Source: an uncultured Phascolarctobacterium sp.
Lineage (GTDB): Bacteria; Bacillota; Negativicutes; Acidaminococcales; Acidaminococcaceae
Direction: 5' to 3'
NCBI GenBank assembly: GCA_949295115.1
Contig: CASFJU010000002.1
Coordinates: 62,001-126,000 of the forward strand
DNA: 64,000 bases
The notes beneath the pieces are model-generated. The model saw only the letters and a list, made by a program, of their open reading frames with translations, was not told where the DNA came from and did not search any database. This document shows, piece after piece, positions 30,709-64,000 of the stretch. Both the position numbers and the translations under genes were made by a program. Numbering within the stretch: position 1 is the stretch's first letter; every line of letters begins with the position of its first letter.

Positions 30709-31499
30709 CTTTGCAGTTACGATACTGCTTACAAATTTTACTTTTTTACTCATGTTCATTCTTTCTAACCAAAGAAAATTAAGGTAGCGTAAATTTCGCT
30801 TCTTATTCAGTCGCAAAATTTGCGTAGCTTCGCTGGCACAATTATAAACTTCGTCTTCGGCTCGTTTCTAATTGGCGACTCAGCTAAAGAAAGTTCCGCG
30901 GCTAGGCGGATTTTCCCGCTTCGCCGCTAACGCGGCTTGCTACGCAACTATTAGCATAACAACTACAAAAATACGAAATTCGCTTCGCTCAGGTTCGATT
31001 TTTGCAGTTGTTCTTTAGCAAATGTTGCTAAAATCCGATGCCGCGTGTTGCCGAGCGTCATACTTCGCAACTTCTTTTTGATTGGTCAGTGCGTATCGCA
31101 CGATAGCAGACTGCTGAAAAGTTCGGTAACATTGCTGCCAAAATAAAAACGTAGCCAAAGTACGAATTTGGGCGGAGCGCGACTTTCAAAAAATAGGCGA
31201 AACTTTAACTAACAAGGCACTTGCAGCTTTTGCCGGAGGATGTCTGAGCGAAGCGAGTTTCCGCAGGCGCTGCAAGTGGCAAACTTATTTGATTCTGAGC
31301 CGTTAAGTTTTTTGAGGAGCGAAGGCTTTTTGGTTACTTTTTACTGAGCCGTTAAGTTTTTTGAGGAGCGAAGGCTTTTTGGTTACTTTTTAGCCTATAA
31401 AAAGTAACATGAATGAGCGATAAAAAAATTAAAAGTAATATCGTAAATGCAAAGGCGAAACATAAATAAAAGTTAAAAAGCACTATACTACATACAAAG
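30709..31499. mobile_element. Non-coding inverted-repeat element, copy I
   Basis: A 791-bp gene-free stretch. Its left end starts CTTTGCAGTTACGATA and its right end has inverted matches at 31433-31456 and 31477-31499. Inside are an outer stem CGGATTTT/AAAATCCG enclosing hairpin 1 (30958-30977 with 30994-31012), and hairpin 2 (31218-31227 with 31269-31278) whose tip holds CTGAGCGAAGCGAGTT. Long blocks are near-identical to copies II and III. No credible protein is encoded. It may be a MITE-like element or a structured RNA locus; I know no name for it. Confidence 0.75.
31295..31392. repeat. Tandem duplication of a 49-bp unit inside element copy I
   Basis: Two adjacent copies of a 49-bp unit beginning CTGAGCCGTTAAG and ending GGTTACTTTTTA. 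Copy III has one such unit but instead duplicates a 30-bp piece, so the right arms expand independently. Confidence 0.9.
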
Positions 31500-34896: not shown

Positions 34897-34916
34897 AAAC
34901 CTATACAAATTGCATA

Positions 34917-35019
34917 GGCGCCGCGGGACTGACGGATATAAGTGGAACTAACCACGTGGACCGCGCTGCTGTAAGATTAGCCGGCCGTCTGGGCAGAGAG
35001 AAGTGCCCGGACGGCTTTT
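34917..35019 (+). ncRNA. ZTP (pfl) riboswitch with terminator expression platform
   Basis: The 5' half reads GGGACTGACGGAT, then a stem GTGG/CCAC and GGACCGCG. The 3' half has CCGTCTGGGCA (34985-34995). Both match the pfl/ZTP consensus with one change each, and the changes pair with each other: GGCGG/CCGCC is here GACGG/CCGTC. The 3' strand doubles as the left arm of a terminator, GCCGTCTGGGCA/TGCCCGGACGGC (34984-35015), followed by TTTT. Binding of ZTP, which signals low 10-formyl-THF, would prevent termination and turn on the transporter. Confidence 0.85.
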
Positions 35020-35066: not shown

Positions 35067-36290
35067 ATGAAAAACAGATGGCTTATCGCACTGGCGGCAG
35101 TCGGCATCCACATTTCCATCGGCAGCGTTTATGCGTGGAGCGTGCTGACGCGCCCCATTATGCAGCAGCTTGGCTTTACCTTGCAGCAAACGACATGGAC
35201 TTTTTCCATTGCTATTTTGTTTTTGGGTTTATCCGCAGGCTTTTTGGGCGGCTACGTTGAAAAGCACGGCCCGCGCAAAAGCGGCTTTACCAGCGCACTG
35301 TTCTTCGGCACTGGCATGCTTGGCACAGCGCTGGCGGTACATCTCGAAAGCCTTGCGCTGTTGTATTTGTTCTACGGTTTTATCGGCGGCATTGGTTTAG
35401 GCGTCGGCTACATCACGCCGGTATCGACGCTGGTTAAATGGTTCCCCAACAACCGTGGCTTTGCCACCGGGCTTGCCATTATGGGCTTCGGCTTTGCAAG
35501 TCTAATCGCCGGGCCTTTAATGCAGTATCTGGTTGCCAATTACGGTTTAGCGCAGAACTTTATCATTTTGGGCGTGGCATACATGGTCATTATGGCGCTG
35601 TCGGCATCGTATCTGGAACCGCCCAAAGCACAGCCGCAGCAGCAATCCGCGCAAAGCGGCAATTACACAACGCTGCTTGCGCCCAAAAGTTATACAGCGG
35701 CACAGGCGCTTAAAACCTGGCAGTTTTACGCACTTTGGTGGATATTTTTTACCAACATCACCTGCGGCATTGGGCTGCTCGCCGTTGCCTCGCCTATGGC
35801 GCAGGAGGTTGTCGGCATGACGCCGGAAGCAGCGGCTTCCATGGTTGGCATCATCGGGCTGATTAACGGCGGCGGTCGCATTGCTTGGTCAACAGTTTCG
35901 GATTACATCGGCAGGCGCGCCGTTTATGTTTTGTTTTTTGTGATAGAAATTGCCGCGTTTTACCTGCTGGCGCAGACGGCGGACGCGCTTTTGTTCCAGC
36001 TTTTGGTGTTCATCATCATCTCCTGCTACGGCGGCGGCTTTTCGTGCATGCCGGCTTATTTAAGCGACCTGTTCGGCACGAAGGAACTGAGCGCCATCCA
36101 CGGCAAAATTTTAACCGCGTGGAGCATGGCAGGCATCGCAGGCCCGCTACTATTATCGTGGATGCGCGAAACCACCAGCGGCTACATAGCCACGCTGTAC
36201 GTATTTTCCGCAGCGTTTGTGTTAAGCCTCATCGTCGCACTTGTACTGAAATGGAAAACGTCGGTGGACGTGGAAATGCAGAAGCATTAA
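35067..36290 (+). CDS. OFA-family major facilitator transporter (oxalate/formate antiporter family)
   Basis: Membrane protein of 407 aa with twelve helices. It starts with a typical OFA first helix (ALAAVGIHISIGSVYAWSVL) and keeps the MFS loop motifs GGYVEKHGPRKSG and GRIAWSTVSDYIGRR. The GxGxGxGYITP stretch after helix 4 is also usual for the family. The ZTP riboswitch in its leader ties it to folate one-carbon status, which makes formate a plausible substrate (inference); the family also carries oxalate, pyruvate and other carboxylates. It is a single-gene unit. Confidence 0.9.
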   Translation: MKNRWLIALAAVGIHISIGSVYAWSVLTRPIMQQLGFTLQQTTWTFSIAILFLGLSAGFLGGYVEKHGPRKSGFTSALFFGTGMLGTALAVHLESLALLYLFYGFIGGIGLGVGYITPVSTLVKWFPNNRGFATGLAIMGFGFASLIAGPLMQYLVANYGLAQNFIILGVAYMVIMALSASYLEPPKAQPQQQSAQSGNYTTLLAPKSYTAAQALKTWQFYALWWIFFTNITCGIGLLAVASPMAQEVVGMTPEAAASMVGIIGLINGGGRIAWSTVSDYIGRRAVYVLFFVIEIAAFYLLAQTADALLFQLLVFIIISCYGGGFSCMPAYLSDLFGTKELSAIHGKILTAWSMAGIAGPLLLSWMRETTSGYIATLYVFSAAFVLSLIVALVLKWKTSVDVEMQKH

Positions 36291-36341: not shown

Positions 36342-36956
36342 CTTTGTAGTTAGGATAGTGCTTTAAATATTTTAGTTTATTACTCATGTTCATTCTTTGT
36401 AACCAAAGAACGAACCAAGAAAGTTCCGCGGCTAGGCGGATTTTCCCGCTTCGCCGCTGACGCTGCTTGCTACGCAACTATTAGCATAACAACTACAAAA
36501 ATACGAAATTCGCTTCGCTCAGGTTCGATTTTTGCAGTTGTTCTTTAATAAATGTTGCTAAAATCCGTCCGATGCCGCGTGGTGCCGAGCGTCGTACTTT
36601 ATAACTTCTTACCGATTGGTTAGCGCACATCGTAGGATAACAAGCTGCTAAACAGTTCGGTAACAATATAATCAAAATAAAAAAGCAGCCATAGTACGAA
36701 TTTGGGCGGAGCGCGGCATTAAAAATTTAGCGGCATTGATAAAGAGCAATAAAAATTTCCCGGTGTCTGAGCGAAGCGAGTTCCGTGGAAATTTTTATTG
36801 GTTGCGGCGGGACGCGTGCGGATTTTTTGCTTTAGCAACAAAATCCGTAAATTTTTGCTAGCCGCAGGAGTTTTCTTGCTTCGTTCTTTTGCTCCGTCAA
36901 AAGAATGAAGATGAATGAGATACTAAAAGTTAAAAAGCACTATCCTACATTCAAAG
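36342..36956. mobile_element. Non-coding inverted-repeat element, copy II
   Basis: A 615-bp gene-free stretch with the clearest ends: 36342-36364 and 36934-36956 are inverted copies (20 of 23 bases), sharing TAGGATAGTGCTTT. The match goes on inward to about 80 bp through CTCATNTTCATTCTTT and AAAGAACGAANCAAGAAA. Hairpin 1 (36488-36507 with 36524-36542) is identical to that of copy I. Hairpin 2 has a different stem (AATAAAAATTTCC/GGAAATTTTTATT, 36748-36760 with 36787-36799) but the same CTGAGCGAAGCGAGTT tip. A third stem is CGGATTTT/AAAATCCG at 36819-36847. Confidence 0.8.
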
Positions 36957-37002
36957 CCGCAACCAAAACAAAAACCAAAACACAAATTCCCACCCATTTT
37001 AC

Positions 37003-48440: not shown

Positions 48441-49055
48441 ACGTCTTTGCAGTTAGTGTATTATTTCTAATTTTTTTATTTTCTCACTCATCCTACTTCT
48501 TTATAACTAAAGAAGTAGCAAGAAAGTTCCGCGGCTAGGCGGATTTCTTAACGCAAGCATGTTTGTCTAAAAACGGCAAAAATTGGCGGAACTCGCTGCG
48601 CTCAAACACCTGATTTTTGCCGTTTTTCTTAGAAAATCTTGCTAAAATCCGATGCCGCGTGTTGCCGAGCGTCGAACTTCATAACTTCTTTTTGATTGGT
48701 CAGCGCACATCATATGATAGCAGGCTGCTGAAAAGTTCGGTAACATTGCTGCCAAAATAAAAACGTAGCCAAAGTACGAATTTGGGCGGAGCCGCGACTT
48801 TCAAAAAATAGGCGAAACTTTCACTAAATAGGCACTTGCAGCTTTTGCCGGAGGATGTCTGAGCGAAGCGAGTTTCCGTAGGCGCTGCAAGTGGCAAACT
48901 TCTTTGATTCTGAGCCGTTAAGTTTTTTCTTCTTTGATTCTGAGCCGTTAAGTTTTTTGAGGAGCGAAGGCTTTTTGGTTACTTTTTAGCCTATAAAAAG
49001 TAACATGAATGAGTGATTAAGAAAATTAAAAGCAATATAGTAAATACAAAGACGT
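48441..49055. mobile_element. Non-coding inverted-repeat element, copy III
   Basis: A 615-bp gene-free stretch. Ends share ACGTCTTTG/CAAAGACGT perfectly (48441-48449 and 49047-49055) and continue as imperfect inverted repeats. Hairpin 1 has a stem unlike copies I and II (AAAAACGGCAAAAAT/ATTTTTGCCGTTTTT, 48569-48583 with 48613-48627), with the tip motif inverted (GGAACTCGCTGCGCTC). Hairpin 2 (48833-48842 with 48884-48893) equals copy I. The middle block, about 48640-48820, is near-identical to copy I. No protein is encoded. Confidence 0.78.
48901..48960. repeat. Tandem duplication of a 30-bp unit inside element copy III
   Basis: Two adjacent copies of a 30-bp unit beginning TCTTTGATTCTGAGCC and ending in AGTTTTTT plus two bases. 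Confidence 0.85.
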
Positions 49056-55888: not shown

Positions 55889-58800
55889 TTAAGCCTCTAC
55901 GGCAATTTCGTCTTCACCGGCGTTTTCTTCGGTAAAGTCCTGGTAATCAATCAGGCCGTAACGGTCGTGCAGCGATAAGCCGTAGCCGTAAGCCTGTTTC
56001 CAGTCCTCATCAAGGTAACGCCCGTGCTGCCAGCGCATATGGTCTTCCGCCGTGAAGCGCTGGTCGTAAACATAATCATATTCGTCCAGCGTCAGCAGGA
56101 TACCGTTGCTTTCCTGAATGTTGTCATCGGTAAAGCGCAGGTACATCCAGTCGCCATTGCCGCTCTGCCACAAATCAAGGTTATCTTCCGGCCTGTTCTC
56201 TGCCGTGTTGTTCCAGTAAACGCTGTCGCTGCCGTCACGCAGAGGAGGTACACCGTAAACAGCTGCCGTCATATCACCGGTGCTGAAATGCGCGGTGTCT
56301 TCAACATACAGCTTGTCAAACCACAGCTGCCCCTGGTTCATATGGATATAGGAATTGTTAACCCAAAGCCTGTCAAAGCGGATACCTTTATTATCATTGG
56401 TCTGGATATTGCTGATAGTAAAGTTATCAATCGGTTTATCCTCTTCTGCGCCGTCCGGAGTAATTACCAGCATGCCGTCAGCATCTTCGCGCTGCGTAAT
56501 CTGGTCAAGATCCATATTACTGCCGGTAAGTACAATCTGCGTGCCTGCTGTAATCTTGTCAACATTCATATCCTTGCCTTCAGTGCGCAGCTGAATTGCT
56601 ACCAGTTCGCCGTTAATTTCATGCAGCGTCAGGTCGCCGTTATTAACATCAACGCGTGCTTCGTTGCTTGCATACAGGTCATACAAATCAACATCGCCAG
56701 TACCGTTCTTATCCCTGCCAACATTGATAACGATATTGCCTTTTGCTTCATCGCCGTCAAGGCTGATTGCCGTCAACTTATTATCTTTATTTGCGGCATC
56801 TTTCAAATCGCCGTCGCCCGCAATATCAATCGTAATATTACCGTCGTTTGCGGTTAAATTGCCGCCCAAGGTAATATCGCCGGTGTTTACGTTAAAGTCA
56901 ACGTCAGTTGTACTGTTAACTTCAACTTCAGCATTAATGCCGCCACCACTGCTAAAGCTTACGCCGCCTGCGTTTTCACCTTCGGTAGTTACGCTGCCGC
57001 CGGTGATATCAAGCTTCGTATCAGCTTTGTTATCAACATTTACATAACCATTTGCGGTAATACCGCCACTAAAGTTAACCTTAAGCCCGTCGTCATTACT
57101 GCCGCTTGCAAGGTCAATAGAACCGTCAACGCTGTTATTTTCACCAAGGCCGGTTACAACAAAACTATTAACATCGTTTTTCTCGCTGCCAAGCAGGATA
57201 TTTTCAGTTGCCGAAGCATTAACTTCGTCTGCCGTAATCTTGCCTTCGTCGGTTTGCTTAATACTGCTTACGCTTGTTACGTCAAGGTTTTCACCTTCAA
57301 CCGTGCCAAGCACAAGCCCTTCTTCAGAACCTTCAGCGCTTGTACCGTCTACGCCTGCCAAAATGATATCACCATTTGCCGAAGCGTTAACAACTGCGCC
57401 GTTATCGAGGATACGGATAGCGTTGTCTTCTTCACCAATCGCACCGCCTGCCGTAAGGTTAACTATATCCGCATTAATGCGGCCCTGCGCCTCGGTATTG
57501 GGGTCAGTGTACATTAAAATGCTGCCGTCTGCTTTAAGGTTAGCAACATTATTGGTAGAAATTGCCAGCAATTTCAAATCGTTAGTATGGTAGATATTAA
57601 TATCACCGTCTGCGTTAGCATATACATTGCCGGTAACGTCAGTCTTAATATAACCAACATCATTAATAACATAATTACCCATAATATCGCCGCTGCCGCC
57701 GGTCAAGGTCAAATCTTTACCGCTCAGCATATCGCTGACATTAATACCTTTATCGCCCTGCAGGCGGATGTTGCCATCAGTATCAACGCCGGTAATATTC
57801 AGCTGGGTATCTTTAACGCCTGCCAGATATACGTTTTTATTAGCATCTACATTTACATTGCCGTAAGTACCGTCGGCTTTTTCATTTACACTTACGGTAA
57901 TAGCCTGCTGCTGACGGATGGTTACGCCATCAACGCCGTCTTCATTTTCACCCCAGGTTAAGTCTCCGGCTTTGGCTGCCGCCAAAAGTTTAAGATTTTC
58001 TTCTATATTCAAATTATCATTAGAAATGAATTGTGCTGCACCGTCGATGCCAACTCCGCCCGCACTTGCGTTAAGGGTAATGTTATTAGCAGTTACGTTA
58101 GGCGTTTCAACCGTCAGTACATCTTTACCCGGGTCAGAATTCAATACGCTGTCCTGAATTGCATACAACAACTGGTTCTTGCTCCAACCGTAGTTATCGC
58201 TGTTAGCAACCTCAGCATATGAGCTGATAAGCTGCTGTTCAGCTTCAGTAAAGTCTTTCCCGTTAAAGTAATCCTGTGCAGACTTATTATAGGCGTCCTT
58301 ATAGACTGCATACGCAGCTTCAATCTCAGCCTGGTCACCATCAGCTTTAGCTACCGCGTCAAGGTAAGCCTCCTTGGCTGCACTAATACCTTCATCATTA
58401 TAGAAAGCATCTGCTGCGTTTTTGTATTCTTCAACACTATGCTCACCTTCTGCTGCCAGTGCCTTCATACGGTCTGTAAGGGCATTAACGCGTTCAGTCT
58501 TAGCTTGTTCAGCAGACGCCGTGCTGTCATCAGCAGAAACCTCTTTGCCTTCTCTGTCTTTTTCAACAATTAACCCTGCTTCAAGCCAGCGGTCAATCTT
58601 ATCCTGAGCGCTGCTGCTGTCGCTGTTTTCACTCGGATGTGCGTCAACAAAGCTGCCATCATTAACCGTCAGCACTGCGTCGCCGTCTTCGCTCACAATC
58701 GTGCCAAGTCGCATATTGCTTGAACCGTTTGCAGCAACATTATCATTATCAACCTGTGTCAGCACAATGTCGCCCTGTGCCTGCGCGTTAACGCTGCTTG

Positions 58801-61800
58801 CCATGGTGTCGCTGCTGTAAAGCTCGCTGCCGCCAAGCACTCTGAATTCTTTAACAACAATACCATCATCATTGAGCGCGCCAATGTTGCCGCTGTTGCT
58901 GATAAGGTCAATGCGCTGGCCTTTAACGGCATAACTGCCGTCCGCTGCGTCAATAAGGTTGCCCTGTGCTTCAAGGTATACGCTGCCGGTTGTAGCGTCA
59001 ATAGGATTCGTTCCGCCGGTAACAGCCTGTTTAATTTTTAAATCGCCGCCGGTAGATACAAACTTAATATCGCCACTATTCGTTGCAATTTTGATATTTG
59101 CGCTGTTACCAATTGCAGTATGGTTAACATTTACGCCGGTTGCAGCTTTAATATTAACATCGTCGGAATTGATGTTGGCACTGCCGATTGCACTTACAGA
59201 ACCGTTGTTGCTGGTAAGATTTACGCTGCCTTTGCCTGCACCGTTAACCTCAGCATTGGTAATGTTACCGGCCAGTTCAATATTTTGATTGCCGGTAATA
59301 CTAATATCACCCTTATTGCTGCCATTGCCAAGGAAGCCGATTTGTATTTTCTTATCAGCCTTAATACTTGCAGTTGTAGAAGAAGTTGTAGTGTTTTCAG
59401 TAGTCCAGCTGTACGTAATTCGACCGTAACCACCTATATAACCTAACCATTCCGGAGGACCCCACTGGGTATCTGTGCTTACTGCAGATTGATTTCCTTC
59501 CTCGCCTCTTATATAAGAACCACTTATAGTCCAGCTTTCTTGCTGTCCGTTATTTTTGCCAATAAAGGCTCCACTGCCATTGGCTTTACCATCTTCATTA
59601 GAATCTATAACAACATCTATTTCTCCACCTTCTTGTTTAATAGCTTCTTCGATAGGGGTACTTTCGTCATATTTCAAGCCAGTCCAGAACAAAAAGTCCT
59701 TAGTGTAAGATTTGTAATTTATTTCACCGCTCTTAAATCCGCCGGTATACTGATAGCTCAATCCTTCAACGGGTTTATATTCTGTTTTAGTTCCGGTTGT
59801 CCAGCCCGGCCTGTCCTGTACGGCCGTGCCTACAGCATATTCACGCCACTGCCCATTTTTGTATTCAGTTACCCAGCCATTAATTTCCCTGCCATTCCTA
59901 TCTTGGGTTACATTTGTATCTGTAATACTGATAACCCCTTCAATATTTCTATTGGTAATATTATTAACAACAACGCCATTGACATTGTTTGTAACGTCAG
60001 TAGTATCAACAGTTATGTCAGCCGCACCGTCCATCGCCATAAGGCGTCCGTTGCCGGTGCTGGACACGTTACCGGTAATATAGATTTGCCCGCCGTTAAC
60101 ATTTACATTGTCAACCAAAAGTTTTTTAGTGGTAGGATTATAATAAACAGCAATTTCATAGTTCCAAACCTTATTGGTTTTATCCCAAACTTTGCCGCCC
60201 TTGTTAACAAGGAACTCACTATTACCAAAAACTTCGCTGTCGTTAAAGTTTTCATTTGAATATTTATCATTTATATTATTAATTTTAGTTATCGCATCAG
60301 CTCCCAAGTCAGTCAGGTATTTGCCGTAACCGGCCTGCACCAAGCCGTTAATGTTTACATCAAGCGCGTTAATATAAACATTATTGCCCGCATCTATGCC
60401 GGCCGTTTCGTCAAGTTCGGTATTACCCAATTCAGCCTTGGTTACACCAACCTTTTCTATAAGCCATTCGATATAGTCTTCTCTTGTCTCAAACGAAATG
60501 CTCCAATCATGATCTTCTCTAAGCCTATCATTAACGTATTCCTGCACTTTAGTGGCAACATCTTCGCTGAACTGATATTGAGTAACAGGGTCGCCGCCTA
60601 CATTTAAAATACCTTCTGTACTGTTCTGTGTTACAGAACCCTGTGCAGCAGATAAGCTTATGTTACGCGCGCTTAACTGCGCATTTTCGTAAATATTTAT
60701 ATCGTTATGGCTGCTGCTGATATTGATATCGCCAACGGCATTAACAATATCACCATAAATTGCAATATCCGGCTGTGCTAATCTGTTATTTTCAAAACTT
60801 GAAGCAGATGTAGATGTAATATTGATTTCAGGCGTTGACGCAGTGCCCTGGTCTCCCGGAACGTTTACGGTACCGGTAAAACCGCCCAGTTTGCCGTCGG
60901 TCATTTCAGAGCCATTTAAGCGAACAATACCGCCATTATCCTGAATGGTTATATCATTTACTTTAAGGTACAAATCGCTGCTATTGCTGATATTAATCTG
61001 CGGAGCACCTTGTGCCGTAACACTGCCGGTACCGGAAAGATTATCTGTTTCAAAATTGATATTACCACCGGATACTACGATATCGGGCAGTTCTATGCCT
61101 AAAACTGTTTTATGCGAAAGCGGTTCGCCAACTAAATTAACTTTACCATCATCATTAACTTTACCATCATCTATCCAGAAACCGGCTTCCAGCATTTGTT
61201 CTTCCAAGGCATCCATTGCCGCACGAAGATTTTTATATTCCTGCGAATCTGTCGGGTACTGGCTTATAACACCGGCAAGCGCGTTATAATCATCTTTCAG
61301 ATTATTGAAAATTTTTACTTCCGTAGGAGTAATCTGATCTTTAGTAAGCCAATCTTGCCCTTCATCAATTTCAATCTTAATACCTTTATAGCTTACGCCG
61401 CTCTTTTCTTCATCAACGATACCTTTATCCTCGTCTGAGTAAACAATTTCAGTTTTAGTTTCGCCGCTAATACTGATATCAAGCTTATTGTGGATACCTG
61501 CGGTTAAAGCTCCGTTTTCGGTAACGCTGATGCCGTTGTTATATACTTCATCCGTTCCTTCATCCTTGCCGCCTGCCGTTGTTGTTACAGAACCTTTACC
61601 GCCGCCGCCGATATTTTTATATACATTGGCAGATTTGGCGATAGTGGTATTGCCTTTAACAGCTTTGGCATTGATATGCCTTACGCTGGCAACATCACTT
61701 TCAACCTTTACCTTATTGTTCTGCGACATATTATTGGTAACGGAAGGATCTGTTGCAAGCGGCAGTGCCGTCCTGTTATAAGCATCGGCAATTACGTTTA

Positions 61801-64000
61801 AGTTAAGCGATGAATATTCGCCGTCAGCATTAACACCTGCATACAGGTTAACGTCATTAGCGCTTTCAATATAAGTATCTTCACCATCATCAACCTTAAC
61901 GTCATTATAGCGGTTAAAGTTATTCGTTGCCTTTGCAGAAGCCGCACCAACCAAACCGCCCTGTGTATCGGCAGTAGTGTTAAGGTCAACATCCGTATTA
62001 TCGCTTGCCGCCAAAGTAATATCCTGATTCTTTTTATCGGTAATTAATTTACTGTTTTCAACATTTACGGCATTATCATATGTAATTGTATGTCCGCTGT
62101 CAGCAACAGATACAGGTATTACGCCTGCAGATTTAAGAACATTGTAACTGCTGATAGTACCTTCGGTCAGTGCCTGTGCCGTAATGCTTCCTTCATCACC
62201 GGCGCCGTGCAGCGTGCTGTCTTTAATATTGACATTAGCGCCGTAATTAAAGGTATCCCTAAGCTGCGTGCCGCTAATCGCCACGCCGCCATAGCCGCTG
62301 CCTTTAATGTCGCCGTCATAGTCCGCAATGTTCTGAGCAAGGTAATTCTGCCCGCCATCTGCATTTACCGTGGCACCGGTAACATTTACGTCAGCCTGAT
62401 TGTCAATACTGTTATCCAGCCAAACACCGCTTGCCCCAATAACCGCCGCCTGCAGCGCATCGGCAAGCAGGTTAATGGTGCCGCCGTTGGAAGCTGTTGC
62501 TTCAACAGCGCCTGCCGTATTCCAATTACCACTTAATGTTACATCGGTATCGGCTTTGTAATCATTGTCAACACCTGCCGCATTCGGGCTGATACCGACC
62601 AAACCGCCGCCATCGCCTTGTGCGGTAGTGGTAATATCCGCATTACTGTCGGCACGGATAATTAAATCGTTTACATCGCTTTCAACTTCATTGCCTTCAG
62701 CGTCAAGATACGTTTTACTGCCATTAGCTTTAACATCCGTCTTTAATACGGCTTTGCTGTTGGCGTCATTGGTACCGCTGGCAAAATACGTACTTGCATA
62801 GATGCCTTTTGCCGTTACATCCTGGTCAACACTATTAACGCCATTGATATTTAAATTAATGCCTTTAGCATCTTCACCGGTACCGCTGCCTTTAAATACG
62901 TTTTCGCCAACGGTAACGGTTACATCGCTGTATGCTTCCGCGCCGCCGGTATTAGCCTGCACTGCGCCGCCGGGCATCATCGGGAAGTTTGCGCTGATAC
63001 TGATACCGTTCATATCAACATTCTGCACAGCGTCGGCTTTGGCTTCTGCCGTCAGGCTTTCAGCGGTAAAGCTGTTGCCGTCACTAATATTAACAATAGT
63101 TTTAAGATGGCCATTATCTTCTTTATTTTCATTTTCTTTATCTTCGGTCTCGATATGAGTACCGATATTGGCTTCAGCAACGGTAAGTGCGCCGGAGGCA
63201 ATCATACTTGCGCTGAGCGAACCGGTTTCTGCCTTTACGGAAGGAGCATTAAGCGCGGTAATGTTAATTGCCTTGCCTGCCGTAAAGTTGCTGCCGCCGG
63301 TAACTTCAACGCCAACCTTGCCGAGTTCATCAGCAGTTGCGCCAACGCCCACACCGGCAAATACAAGACCGCCGCTGGCCGCTTTAGCACTTACGCTTAA
63401 GCTTTCAACTTTATTGCCGTTCTCGTCCTTAGCCTGGCGTTCAGCGTGTATATTAATATCTTCACCGGCATCAATATCGGTATTATTTACATTAATAGTA
63501 GTTGAGCTGTCGTTGCTGCCCTGTGCCACAATTACGCTTGCCGCAACACTGCCTGCCGCAACAAGGCCTTTTGCATTAACAACAGTTTTGCTTTCGTCAT
63601 TAGCATTAATATCAACACTACCACCAATGTTCAAAGTGCTTCCGCTTACGCTGATGTTATTTACACCGGTTGAAGAAGCAGAACCGTAAGCCGCACCGAT
63701 AGAATATGAACCTGCAACGCTCCCCTGATAAATATCAAGGTTTGACGTACCTTTTTGCGTTGTGCTTATTGTCAAATCTTTTGCAGCAATAGTTGTATTA
63801 TCAATATTTACAACACTGTTACGGTTAACATCCAAAATGCCTACCGTACCACTAACGCTTGCAAAAGTCCCACCGGTACCCTGAATGCTATCCATGGTTA
63901 CTTTAGTATCTGCAACAGCTTCTGCCGTTACTTTGTTACCGGCATTAAGCGTTGTTTCATTATTGATATTAACTTCAACTACCGAAGCACTATCAGCACC
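55889..64000 (-). CDS. Giant filamentous adhesin (LktA/FHA-like), start beyond the window
   Basis: At least 2703 residues are visible and the frame is still open at the window edge, so the start is missing. Most of it is a repetitive Asn/Asp/Gly/Thr-rich beta-helix with many ITA, NIN and DIN steps, as in filamentous haemagglutinins and the leukotoxin LktA family annotated in anaerobes. Three stretches break the pattern: a helical charged insert at about 61060-61420, a Trp/Tyr-rich insert at about 59400-60250, and a helical insert at about 58140-58640. The C-terminus (about 55892-56300) is aromatic and acidic and has no barrel, so secretion needs a partner not seen here. It probably acts in adhesion. 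Confidence 0.88.
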   Translation of the reverse strand, partial: GADSASVVEVNINNETTLNAGNKVTAEAVADTKVTMDSIQGTGGTFASVSGTVGILDVNRNSVVNIDNTTIAAKDLTISTTQKGTSNLDIYQGSVAGSYSIGAAYGSASSTGVNNISVSGSTLNIGGSVDINANDESKTVVNAKGLVAAGSVAASVIVAQGSNDSSTTINVNNTDIDAGEDINIHAERQAKDENGNKVESLSVSAKAASGGLVFAGVGVGATADELGKVGVEVTGGSNFTAGKAINITALNAPSVKAETGSLSASMIASGALTVAEANIGTHIETEDKENENKEDNGHLKTIVNISDGNSFTAESLTAEAKADAVQNVDMNGISISANFPMMPGGAVQANTGGAEAYSDVTVTVGENVFKGSGTGEDAKGINLNINGVNSVDQDVTAKGIYASTYFASGTNDANSKAVLKTDVKANGSKTYLDAEGNEVESDVNDLIIRADSNADITTTAQGDGGGLVGISPNAAGVDNDYKADTDVTLSGNWNTAGAVEATASNGGTINLLADALQAAVIGASGVWLDNSIDNQADVNVTGATVNADGGQNYLAQNIADYDGDIKGSGYGGVAISGTQLRDTFNYGANVNIKDSTLHGAGDEGSITAQALTEGTISSYNVLKSAGVIPVSVADSGHTITYDNAVNVENSKLITDKKNQDITLAASDNTDVDLNTTADTQGGLVGAASAKATNNFNRYNDVKVDDGEDTYIESANDVNLYAGVNADGEYSSLNLNVIADAYNRTALPLATDPSVTNNMSQNNKVKVESDVASVRHINAKAVKGNTTIAKSANVYKNIGGGGKGSVTTTAGGKDEGTDEVYNNGISVTENGALTAGIHNKLDISISGETKTEIVYSDEDKGIVDEEKSGVSYKGIKIEIDEGQDWLTKDQITPTEVKIFNNLKDDYNALAGVISQYPTDSQEYKNLRAAMDALEEQMLEAGFWIDDGKVNDDGKVNLVGEPLSHKTVLGIELPDIVVSGGNINFETDNLSGTGSVTAQGAPQINISNSSDLYLKVNDITIQDNGGIVRLNGSEMTDGKLGGFTGTVNVPGDQGTASTPEINITSTSASSFENNRLAQPDIAIYGDIVNAVGDINISSSHNDINIYENAQLSARNISLSAAQGSVTQNSTEGILNVGGDPVTQYQFSEDVATKVQEYVNDRLREDHDWSISFETREDYIEWLIEKVGVTKAELGNTELDETAGIDAGNNVYINALDVNINGLVQAGYGKYLTDLGADAITKINNINDKYSNENFNDSEVFGNSEFLVNKGGKVWDKTNKVWNYEIAVYYNPTTKKLLVDNVNVNGGQIYITGNVSSTGNGRLMAMDGAADITVDTTDVTNNVNGVVVNNITNRNIEGVISITDTNVTQDRNGREINGWVTEYKNGQWREYAVGTAVQDRPGWTTGTKTEYKPVEGLSYQYTGGFKSGEINYKSYTKDFLFWTGLKYDESTPIEEAIKQEGGEIDVVIDSNEDGKANGSGAFIGKNNGQQESWTISGSYIRGEEGNQSAVSTDTQWGPPEWLGYIGGYGRITYSWTTENTTTSSTTASIKADKKIQIGFLGNGSNKGDISITGNQNIELAGNITNAEVNGAGKGSVNLTSNNGSVSAIGSANINSDDVNIKAATGVNVNHTAIGNSANIKIATNSGDIKFVSTGGDLKIKQAVTGGTNPIDATTGSVYLEAQGNLIDAADGSYAVKGQRIDLISNSGNIGALNDDGIVVKEFRVLGGSELYSSDTMASSVNAQAQGDIVLTQVDNDNVAANGSSNMRLGTIVSEDGDAVLTVNDGSFVDAHPSENSDSSSAQDKIDRWLEAGLIVEKDREGKEVSADDSTASAEQAKTERVNALTDRMKALAAEGEHSVEEYKNAADAFYNDEGISAAKEAYLDAVAKADGDQAEIEAAYAVYKDAYNKSAQDYFNGKDFTEAEQQLISSYAEVANSDNYGWSKNQLLYAIQDSVLNSDPGKDVLTVETPNVTANNITLNASAGGVGIDGAAQFISNDNLNIEENLKLLAAAKAGDLTWGENEDGVDGVTIRQQQAITVSVNEKADGTYGNVNVDANKNVYLAGVKDTQLNITGVDTDGNIRLQGDKGINVSDMLSGKDLTLTGGSGDIMGNYVINDVGYIKTDVTGNVYANADGDINIYHTNDLKLLAISTNNVANLKADGSILMYTDPNTEAQGRINADIVNLTAGGAIGEEDNAIRILDNGAVVNASANGDIILAGVDGTSAEGSEEGLVLGTVEGENLDVTSVSSIKQTDEGKITADEVNASATENILLGSEKNDVNSFVVTGLGENNSVDGSIDLASGSNDDGLKVNFSGGITANGYVNVDNKADTKLDITGGSVTTEGENAGGVSFSSGGGINAEVEVNSTTDVDFNVNTGDITLGGNLTANDGNITIDIAGDGDLKDAANKDNKLTAISLDGDEAKGNIVINVGRDKNGTGDVDLYDLYASNEARVDVNNGDLTLHEINGELVAIQLRTEGKDMNVDKITAGTQIVLTGSNMDLDQITQREDADGMLVITPDGAEEDKPIDNFTISNIQTNDNKGIRFDRLWVNNSYIHMNQGQLWFDKLYVEDTAHFSTGDMTAAVYGVPPLRDGSDSVYWNNTAENRPEDNLDLWQSGNGDWMYLRFTDDNIQESNGILLTLDEYDYVYDQRFTAEDHMRWQHGRYLDEDWKQAYGYGLSLHDRYGLIDYQDFTEENAGEDEIAVEA

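Follow-up and report, generated by a model that had tools for sequence, protein, structure and literature searches.

MITEs and comparable modular repeats, among them the double-hairpin elements of fungal mitochondria, combine terminal inverted repeats with modular hairpins and compensated changes in their stems. REP sequences and REPINs, marked by GTAG or CGTC tags (PMC3733652), are dispersed, non-coding intergenic palindromes, often arranged as inverted pairs, that favor the 3' ends of genes. At the early promoters of phage N4, read by its virion RNA polymerase, hairpin extrusion requires a C:G closing pair and, within a loop of 3 nt, both the G and the A; the loop is protected on one strand, and non-conserved stem bases count only through their pairing (PMC4496689). 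More generally, GNA triloops closed by C-G form ultrastable DNA minihairpins (PMC6479982, PMC10527192), and d(GCGNAGC) fragments are ultrastable minihairpins of high thermal stability, according to the account of Yoshizawa et al. 1997 given in PMC6479982.

The elements described here, whose hairpins share a conserved tip, resemble each of these systems in part. Like REP/REPIN sequences they are dispersed, intergenic, non-coding, often present as inverted pairs and more frequent at gene 3' ends; however, they are identified by their tip and not by a tag at the foot, their stems are arbitrary and longer, they show no association with RAYT genes, and one tip spans many phyla. With MITE-type repeats they share terminal inverted repeats, modular hairpins and compensated stem changes, but neither a cognate transposase nor a target duplication was found for them, and their tip is conserved over phyla. 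In common with the N4 promoters they have a C:G-closed 3-nt G-N-A loop, with its 5' G and 3' A present in the tips, a strand-asymmetric loop, and stem bases that are free as long as they pair. The N4 promoters, in contrast, are single phage sites, whereas the tip elements are repeats of the host chromosome that have long outer stems and lack a known polymerase. Finally, the tip core GCGNAGC belongs to the sequence family of the d(GCGNAGC) minihairpins, which are synthetic oligonucleotides, whereas the tip fold occurs on variable stems in many genomes.

Three intergenic elements, copies I, II and III, lie in the window, the whole 64,000-nt stretch of DNA that was analyzed (Table 1). The genome, a draft of 1.7 Mb in 28 contigs that a near relative (L289) places in the Acidaminococcaceae, has about nine copies. 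Terminal inverted repeats resembling CTTTGCAGTTACGATA, as is typical of MITEs, bound the three window copies as well as others. The window contains exactly three occurrences of the tip GAGCGAAGCGAG, all on the plus strand (starting at 31246, 36769 and 48861), against 0.01 expected from dinucleotide shuffles. The initial annotation had placed this tip on the stem CACTTGCAGC/GCTGCAAGTG in copies I and III and on CAATAAAAATTTCC/GGAAATTTTTATTG in copy II, and a reversed tip on AAAAACGGCAAAAAT/ATTTTTGCCGTTTTT in hairpin 1 of copy III, all of which was verified in the sequence; missing from its list was hairpin 1 of copies I and II, which bears the reversed tip on the stem AACAACTGCAAAAATCGAA. Its description of the stems as perfect in each copy holds for the hairpins that it listed, but pairing in the AACAACTGCAAAAATCGAA stem is only near-perfect (one mismatch, one bulged base), and two further copies in the genome (L004 and L005) lack the 3' arm of hairpin 2. 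Likewise, the tip that it called fixed is indeed conserved, although the reversed tips differ between copy III (GAGCGCAGCGAG) and copies I and II (GAGCGAAGCGAA). In copies I and III, hairpin 2 is followed on its 3' side by tandem duplications of a segment, CTGAGCCGTTAAGTTTTTTGAGGAGCGAAGG, and two features unconnected to the elements are also listed in Table 1.

Table 1. Positions of the three elements, their component parts and other features within the window
Feature	Position	Strand	Description
Copy I	30709-31454	+	From terminal repeat CTTTGCAGTTACGATA to its inverted counterpart CTTTGCATTTACGATA
Copy I, module	30788-30892	+	About 105 bp; lacking in copies II and III
Copy I, hairpin 1	30958-31012	-	Stem AACAACTGCAAAAATCGAA, near-perfect; minus-strand tip GAGCGAAGCGAA at 30979-30990
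Copy I, hairpin 2	31218-31278	+	Stem CACTTGCAGC/GCTGCAAGTG; minihairpin tip GAGCGAAGCGAG at 31246-31257
Copy I, tandem duplication	31285-31382		Segment CTGAGCCGTTAAGTTTTTTGAGGAGCGAAGG; 49-bp units
Copy II	36342-36965	+	Right end approximate
Copy II, hairpin 1	36488-36542	-	Stem AACAACTGCAAAAATCGAA, shared with copy I hairpin 1; reversed tip GAGCGAAGCGAA at 36509-36520
Copy II, hairpin 2	36747-36800	+	Stem CAATAAAAATTTCC/GGAAATTTTTATTG; tip GAGCGAAGCGAG at 36769-36780
Copy III	48445-49051	+	
Copy III, hairpin 1	48569-48627	-	Stem AAAAACGGCAAAAAT/ATTTTTGCCGTTTTT; reversed tip GAGCGCAGCGAG at 48592-48603
Copy III, hairpin 2	48833-48893	+	Stem CACTTGCAGC/GCTGCAAGTG; tip GAGCGAAGCGAG at 48861-48872
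Copy III, tandem duplication	48899-48958		Segment CTGAGCCGTTAAGTTTTTTGAGGAGCGAAGG; 30-bp units
ZMP/ZTP riboswitch	34915-35001	+	Rfam RF01750, 63 bits; upstream of ORF at 35067
Single ORF	55889-63895	-	2668 codons

Within the genus the elements differ at orthologous loci. The family is present in all five congeners searched, and one partial match was obtained among 55 other relatives; hairpins of the congeners carry several unrelated stems beneath an identical tip. In sister species G002 and G003, the CAATAAAAATTTCC hairpin takes the place of this genome's CACTTGCAGC hairpin at the locus orthologous to that of copy III. A second locus has the element in opposite orientations in G001 and G003, and the module of copy I (~105-110 bp) is inserted in an element of G004 and missing from the orthologous element of G003. 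These events of swap, inversion and module insertion at orthologous loci indicate that whole hairpins and modules are exchanged, a process that could involve transposition or homologous recombination between repeats. No empty site was retrieved, and no consistent target-site duplication was noticed by eye. The module is itself palindromic, and was found free-standing at other sites of this genome and, overall, in two genomes (L020, positions 1500-1605, and L112), as well as nested in elements such as copy I. A pair of inverted AC-GNA-GT hairpins, some 370 bp apart (L444, 1501-1872; L449, 1501-1875), has two stems common to at least two species of one genus and is probably an old, vertically kept copy.

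Beyond the genus, 62 of the 380 genomes in the class, representing 21 of 102 genera, contain the 19-base tip pattern TGTYTGAGCGNAGCGAGTT, with up to 33 copies per genome, while none of the 380 contains its reversed control. A scan of a genome collection with the same pattern matched at least 118 stretches in many phyla, those among the matches listed including Pseudomonadota, Bacteroidota, Bacillota, Fusobacteriota, Nitrospirota, Nitrospinota, Desulfobacterota-type lineages, Patescibacteria and Cyanobacteria-related MAGs. Many of the tip-bearing genomes are isolates, so MAG contamination does not account for this spread. In 90 of the 111 testable stretches among the matches listed, the tip sat on a perfect outer stem of 7 bp or more, and about one fifth of the matches listed had no outer stem. 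Tip matches in viral contigs had an outer stem in only 24 of 87 cases; altered-pair matches there are background without outer stems, and viral contigs were therefore rejected as a test of mini-stem covariation and serve solely as a negative control. Searches for plasmid relatives of copy I and for phage relatives of a Haemophilus element gave no match. In open-access full texts, where sequence motifs are poorly indexed, no description of the tip sequences as a hairpin repeat was found.

The outer stems are free in sequence and preserved in their pairing. At 140 of 212 tips, 8 or more consecutive pairs begin no more than 16 nt from the tip, as opposed to 0.8% when one arm was shuffled and 1.7% when arms were swapped, and 118 distinct stems occur in this set. 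In ten hairpins (eight from one genus) that, like one further stem set, were pre-filtered for at least 8 paired bases, 14 of 18 pairs had changed on both sides, a level reached by none of 500 shuffles, and this covariation signal drops when the partners are slid. Preservation of pairing under changing stem sequence, and the modularity of the hairpins, both proposed in the initial annotation, were thus borne out across the genus and in a wider range of genomes. Still, covariation in a DNA palindrome can arise without selection, by mutational copying of one arm into the other. A second motif was observed in the outer stem, an asymmetric bulge of GTTAAGAAA opposite TTTTAG, found at 49 of 273 tips and 3 of 546 control sites, and in flipped form at 14 of 273 tips and 2 of 546 control sites.

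The tip is a minihairpin nested upon this stem, with the architecture TGTYT-GA-(2-6 bp stem closed by C-G)-GNA-(stem')-GA-GTT. Across genomes it is not fixed letter by letter, as had been thought, but has a covarying stem of its own. When the outer mini-pair was forced to change on both sides, 107 matches were obtained, of which 90 were Watson-Crick at both pairs (AC..GT in 78, CC..GG in 12). Among altered-pair matches that were fetched, all 23 of those with paired bases had an outer stem of 6 bp or longer (7 bp or longer in 20 of them) and none of the nine unpaired ones did, so that chance matches separate cleanly from elements. One-sided changes of the mini-stem were absent from a one-mismatch search of nine relatives, and a two-sided change imposed on the inner C-G pair had no match in 380 genomes. 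A search with the 5' G of the GA flank altered yielded 12 matches, near the level of the reversed control, with an outer stem in only one. Longer mini-stems found in nature (GCTTGC[GTA or GCA]GCAAGC, GTTTGC[GCA]GCAAAC, GCC[GCA]GGC and GGGC[GAA]GCCC) all retain GNA and the C-G closure; the loop base N is chiefly A, C or T and seldom G, and there is hardly any variation in the C-G pair that closes the loop or in the G·A bases that flank the mini-stem. Sequence, covariation and invariance tests alike point to a GNA triloop closed by C-G, and the conserved tip resembles an element that serves for recognition or folding, in support of the earlier impression. The minihairpin is not predicted by standard folding energies; from its sequence and from published work on DNA we infer that the tip would adopt this fold and share its stability, and tandem sheared G-A pairs could arise from the GA on its two sides, on the same strand only and not on the complement. 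A kink-turn reading of the GA/GA flanks was discarded, their flanking bases being a misfit to the standard 3-nt bulge.

These properties of the tip bear upon a reading of the hairpins as passive palindromes, in which they are old repeats with no recognizer of the tip and owe their perfect stems only to mutational template switching or gene conversion. Copying from arm to arm would account for perfect stems of any sequence, and swaps between copies at orthologous loci fit such a picture, but it leaves unexplained a GA-GNA-GA tip with TGTYT and GTT flanks that is identical in many phyla, the altered mini-stems that are always paired in real elements, and the invariance of the closing pair. We consider it distinctly unlikely. 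The bacteria-wide occurrence of a conserved minihairpin tip, borne by stems that are free in sequence yet paired, is in our view strongly established, and suggests that the hairpins are an undescribed class of mobile or protein-recognized DNA element.

Alternatively, the hairpins may act in transcripts, as 3' UTR stabilizers, terminators or protein-binding sites, with the tip as an RNA motif, and a folded RNA had been one of the two interpretations offered by the initial annotation. Both the structure and the stem covariation are what a structured RNA would exhibit, and the elements, which lie in short intergenic gaps, favor gene 3' ends (54 tandem and 31 convergent gaps, as compared with 13 divergent); at one locus (L182) an element even splits adjacent operon-like genes. 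No neighboring or carried gene recurred as a cluster past a few loci. Against an RNA role stand the nature of the loop, which is GNA and not GNRA or UNCG and retains the C-G closing pair of DNA minihairpins, the occurrence of tips in both orientations, often as inverted pairs, and the lack of a match to any Rfam family. In gaps between co-directional genes, moreover, the GNA strand lies opposite the genes in 37 of 54 cases and with them in 17, a modest bias that weakly disfavors a role in the sense transcript. Folded RNA is thus the less likely of the two natures and, as an overall explanation, rather improbable. The rule governing N4 promoters is the one seen in the tip hairpins, which supports the DNA reading, and the elements on balance probably form a REP-like class of DNA elements dispersed between genes, which has its tip and not its stem as defining feature and is read as folded single-stranded DNA.

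The identity of a possible reader of such a fold was pursued among two groups of enzymes. TnpA/RAYT had been put forward initially as recognizing the tip, and mobilization by RAYT or another Y1 HUH transposase in the manner of REPINs would agree with the REPIN-like inverted hairpin pairs, their intergenic spread and the presence of Y1 genes in 23 of 36 genomes tested. However, both PF01797 loci of this genome are interrupted by stop codons, many tip-rich genomes (e.g., G084, G246, G248 and G107) have no PF01797 match, and the strict tip was found in the flanks of none of 30 PF01797 loci (three of 30 under a looser definition). Neither a GTAG nor a CGTC tag is present at the feet of the six window hairpins, and no RAYT gene flanked by copies of the repeat was found. 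A RAYT/Y1 partner was accordingly rejected, and we give it very little credence.

A second candidate, the Vsr-like DUF559 nucleases, either carried by the elements or mobilizing them, was suggested by the GA-stem-GNA-stem-GA tip lying within ~1.5 kb at 10 of 44 DUF559 loci versus 3 of 30 control loci beside Y1 genes, by a tip density of 17 per 128 kb beside DUF559 genes versus 3 per 87 kb beside Y1 genes, and by some genes with tips on both sides. Yet DUF559 is missing from all six genomes of this genus, its presence does not follow the tips within genus g32, the flanking hairpins mostly belong to a related but distinct repeat class, and no characterization as such a partner was found in the literature. 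As a general partner DUF559 was therefore set aside as highly improbable, remaining a weak lead. The distinct class, with DUF559 genes near or between its repeats (L382, 1349 and 1999; L383, 1306 and 1962; L469; L483), has a stem of CCTTCCCC or CTCCCTC and an identical GA-GC-GNA-GC-GA core. No cognate transposase or other mobilizing enzyme was found for the elements.

A mechanism that would unite these observations begins with the purine-rich strand, which may fold as single-stranded DNA through its GNA triloop and possible sheared G-A pairs. Given such folding of the GNA strand, we infer that supercoiling or replication would readily bring about extrusion of the palindrome on one strand. A candidate trans-acting protein, other than RAYT, might then recognize the extruded tip and mobilize or copy the hairpin, and the stems would stay paired because extrusion requires it, because one arm serves as template for the other when the hairpin is copied, or both. 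In its fullest form, which we advance tentatively and as somewhat short of an even prospect, this proposal makes the elements an undescribed, bacteria-wide family in which the protein sees the GA-stem-GNA-stem'-GA fold and the tip, but not the stem, and moves hairpins or makes copies of them, inside a genome as well as from one genome to another.

Classification of bacterial palindromic repeats generally relies on the sequence of stem or foot, a practice that would scatter the tip hairpins into unrelated, species-specific repeats. Grouping by tip instead unites elements of many phyla, and predicts that something recognizes the extruded GNA minihairpin. Such a family would supply a natural, covariation-supported secondary structure of DNA, not RNA, kept across bacteria, and its tip would be a clear bait for the missing enzyme.
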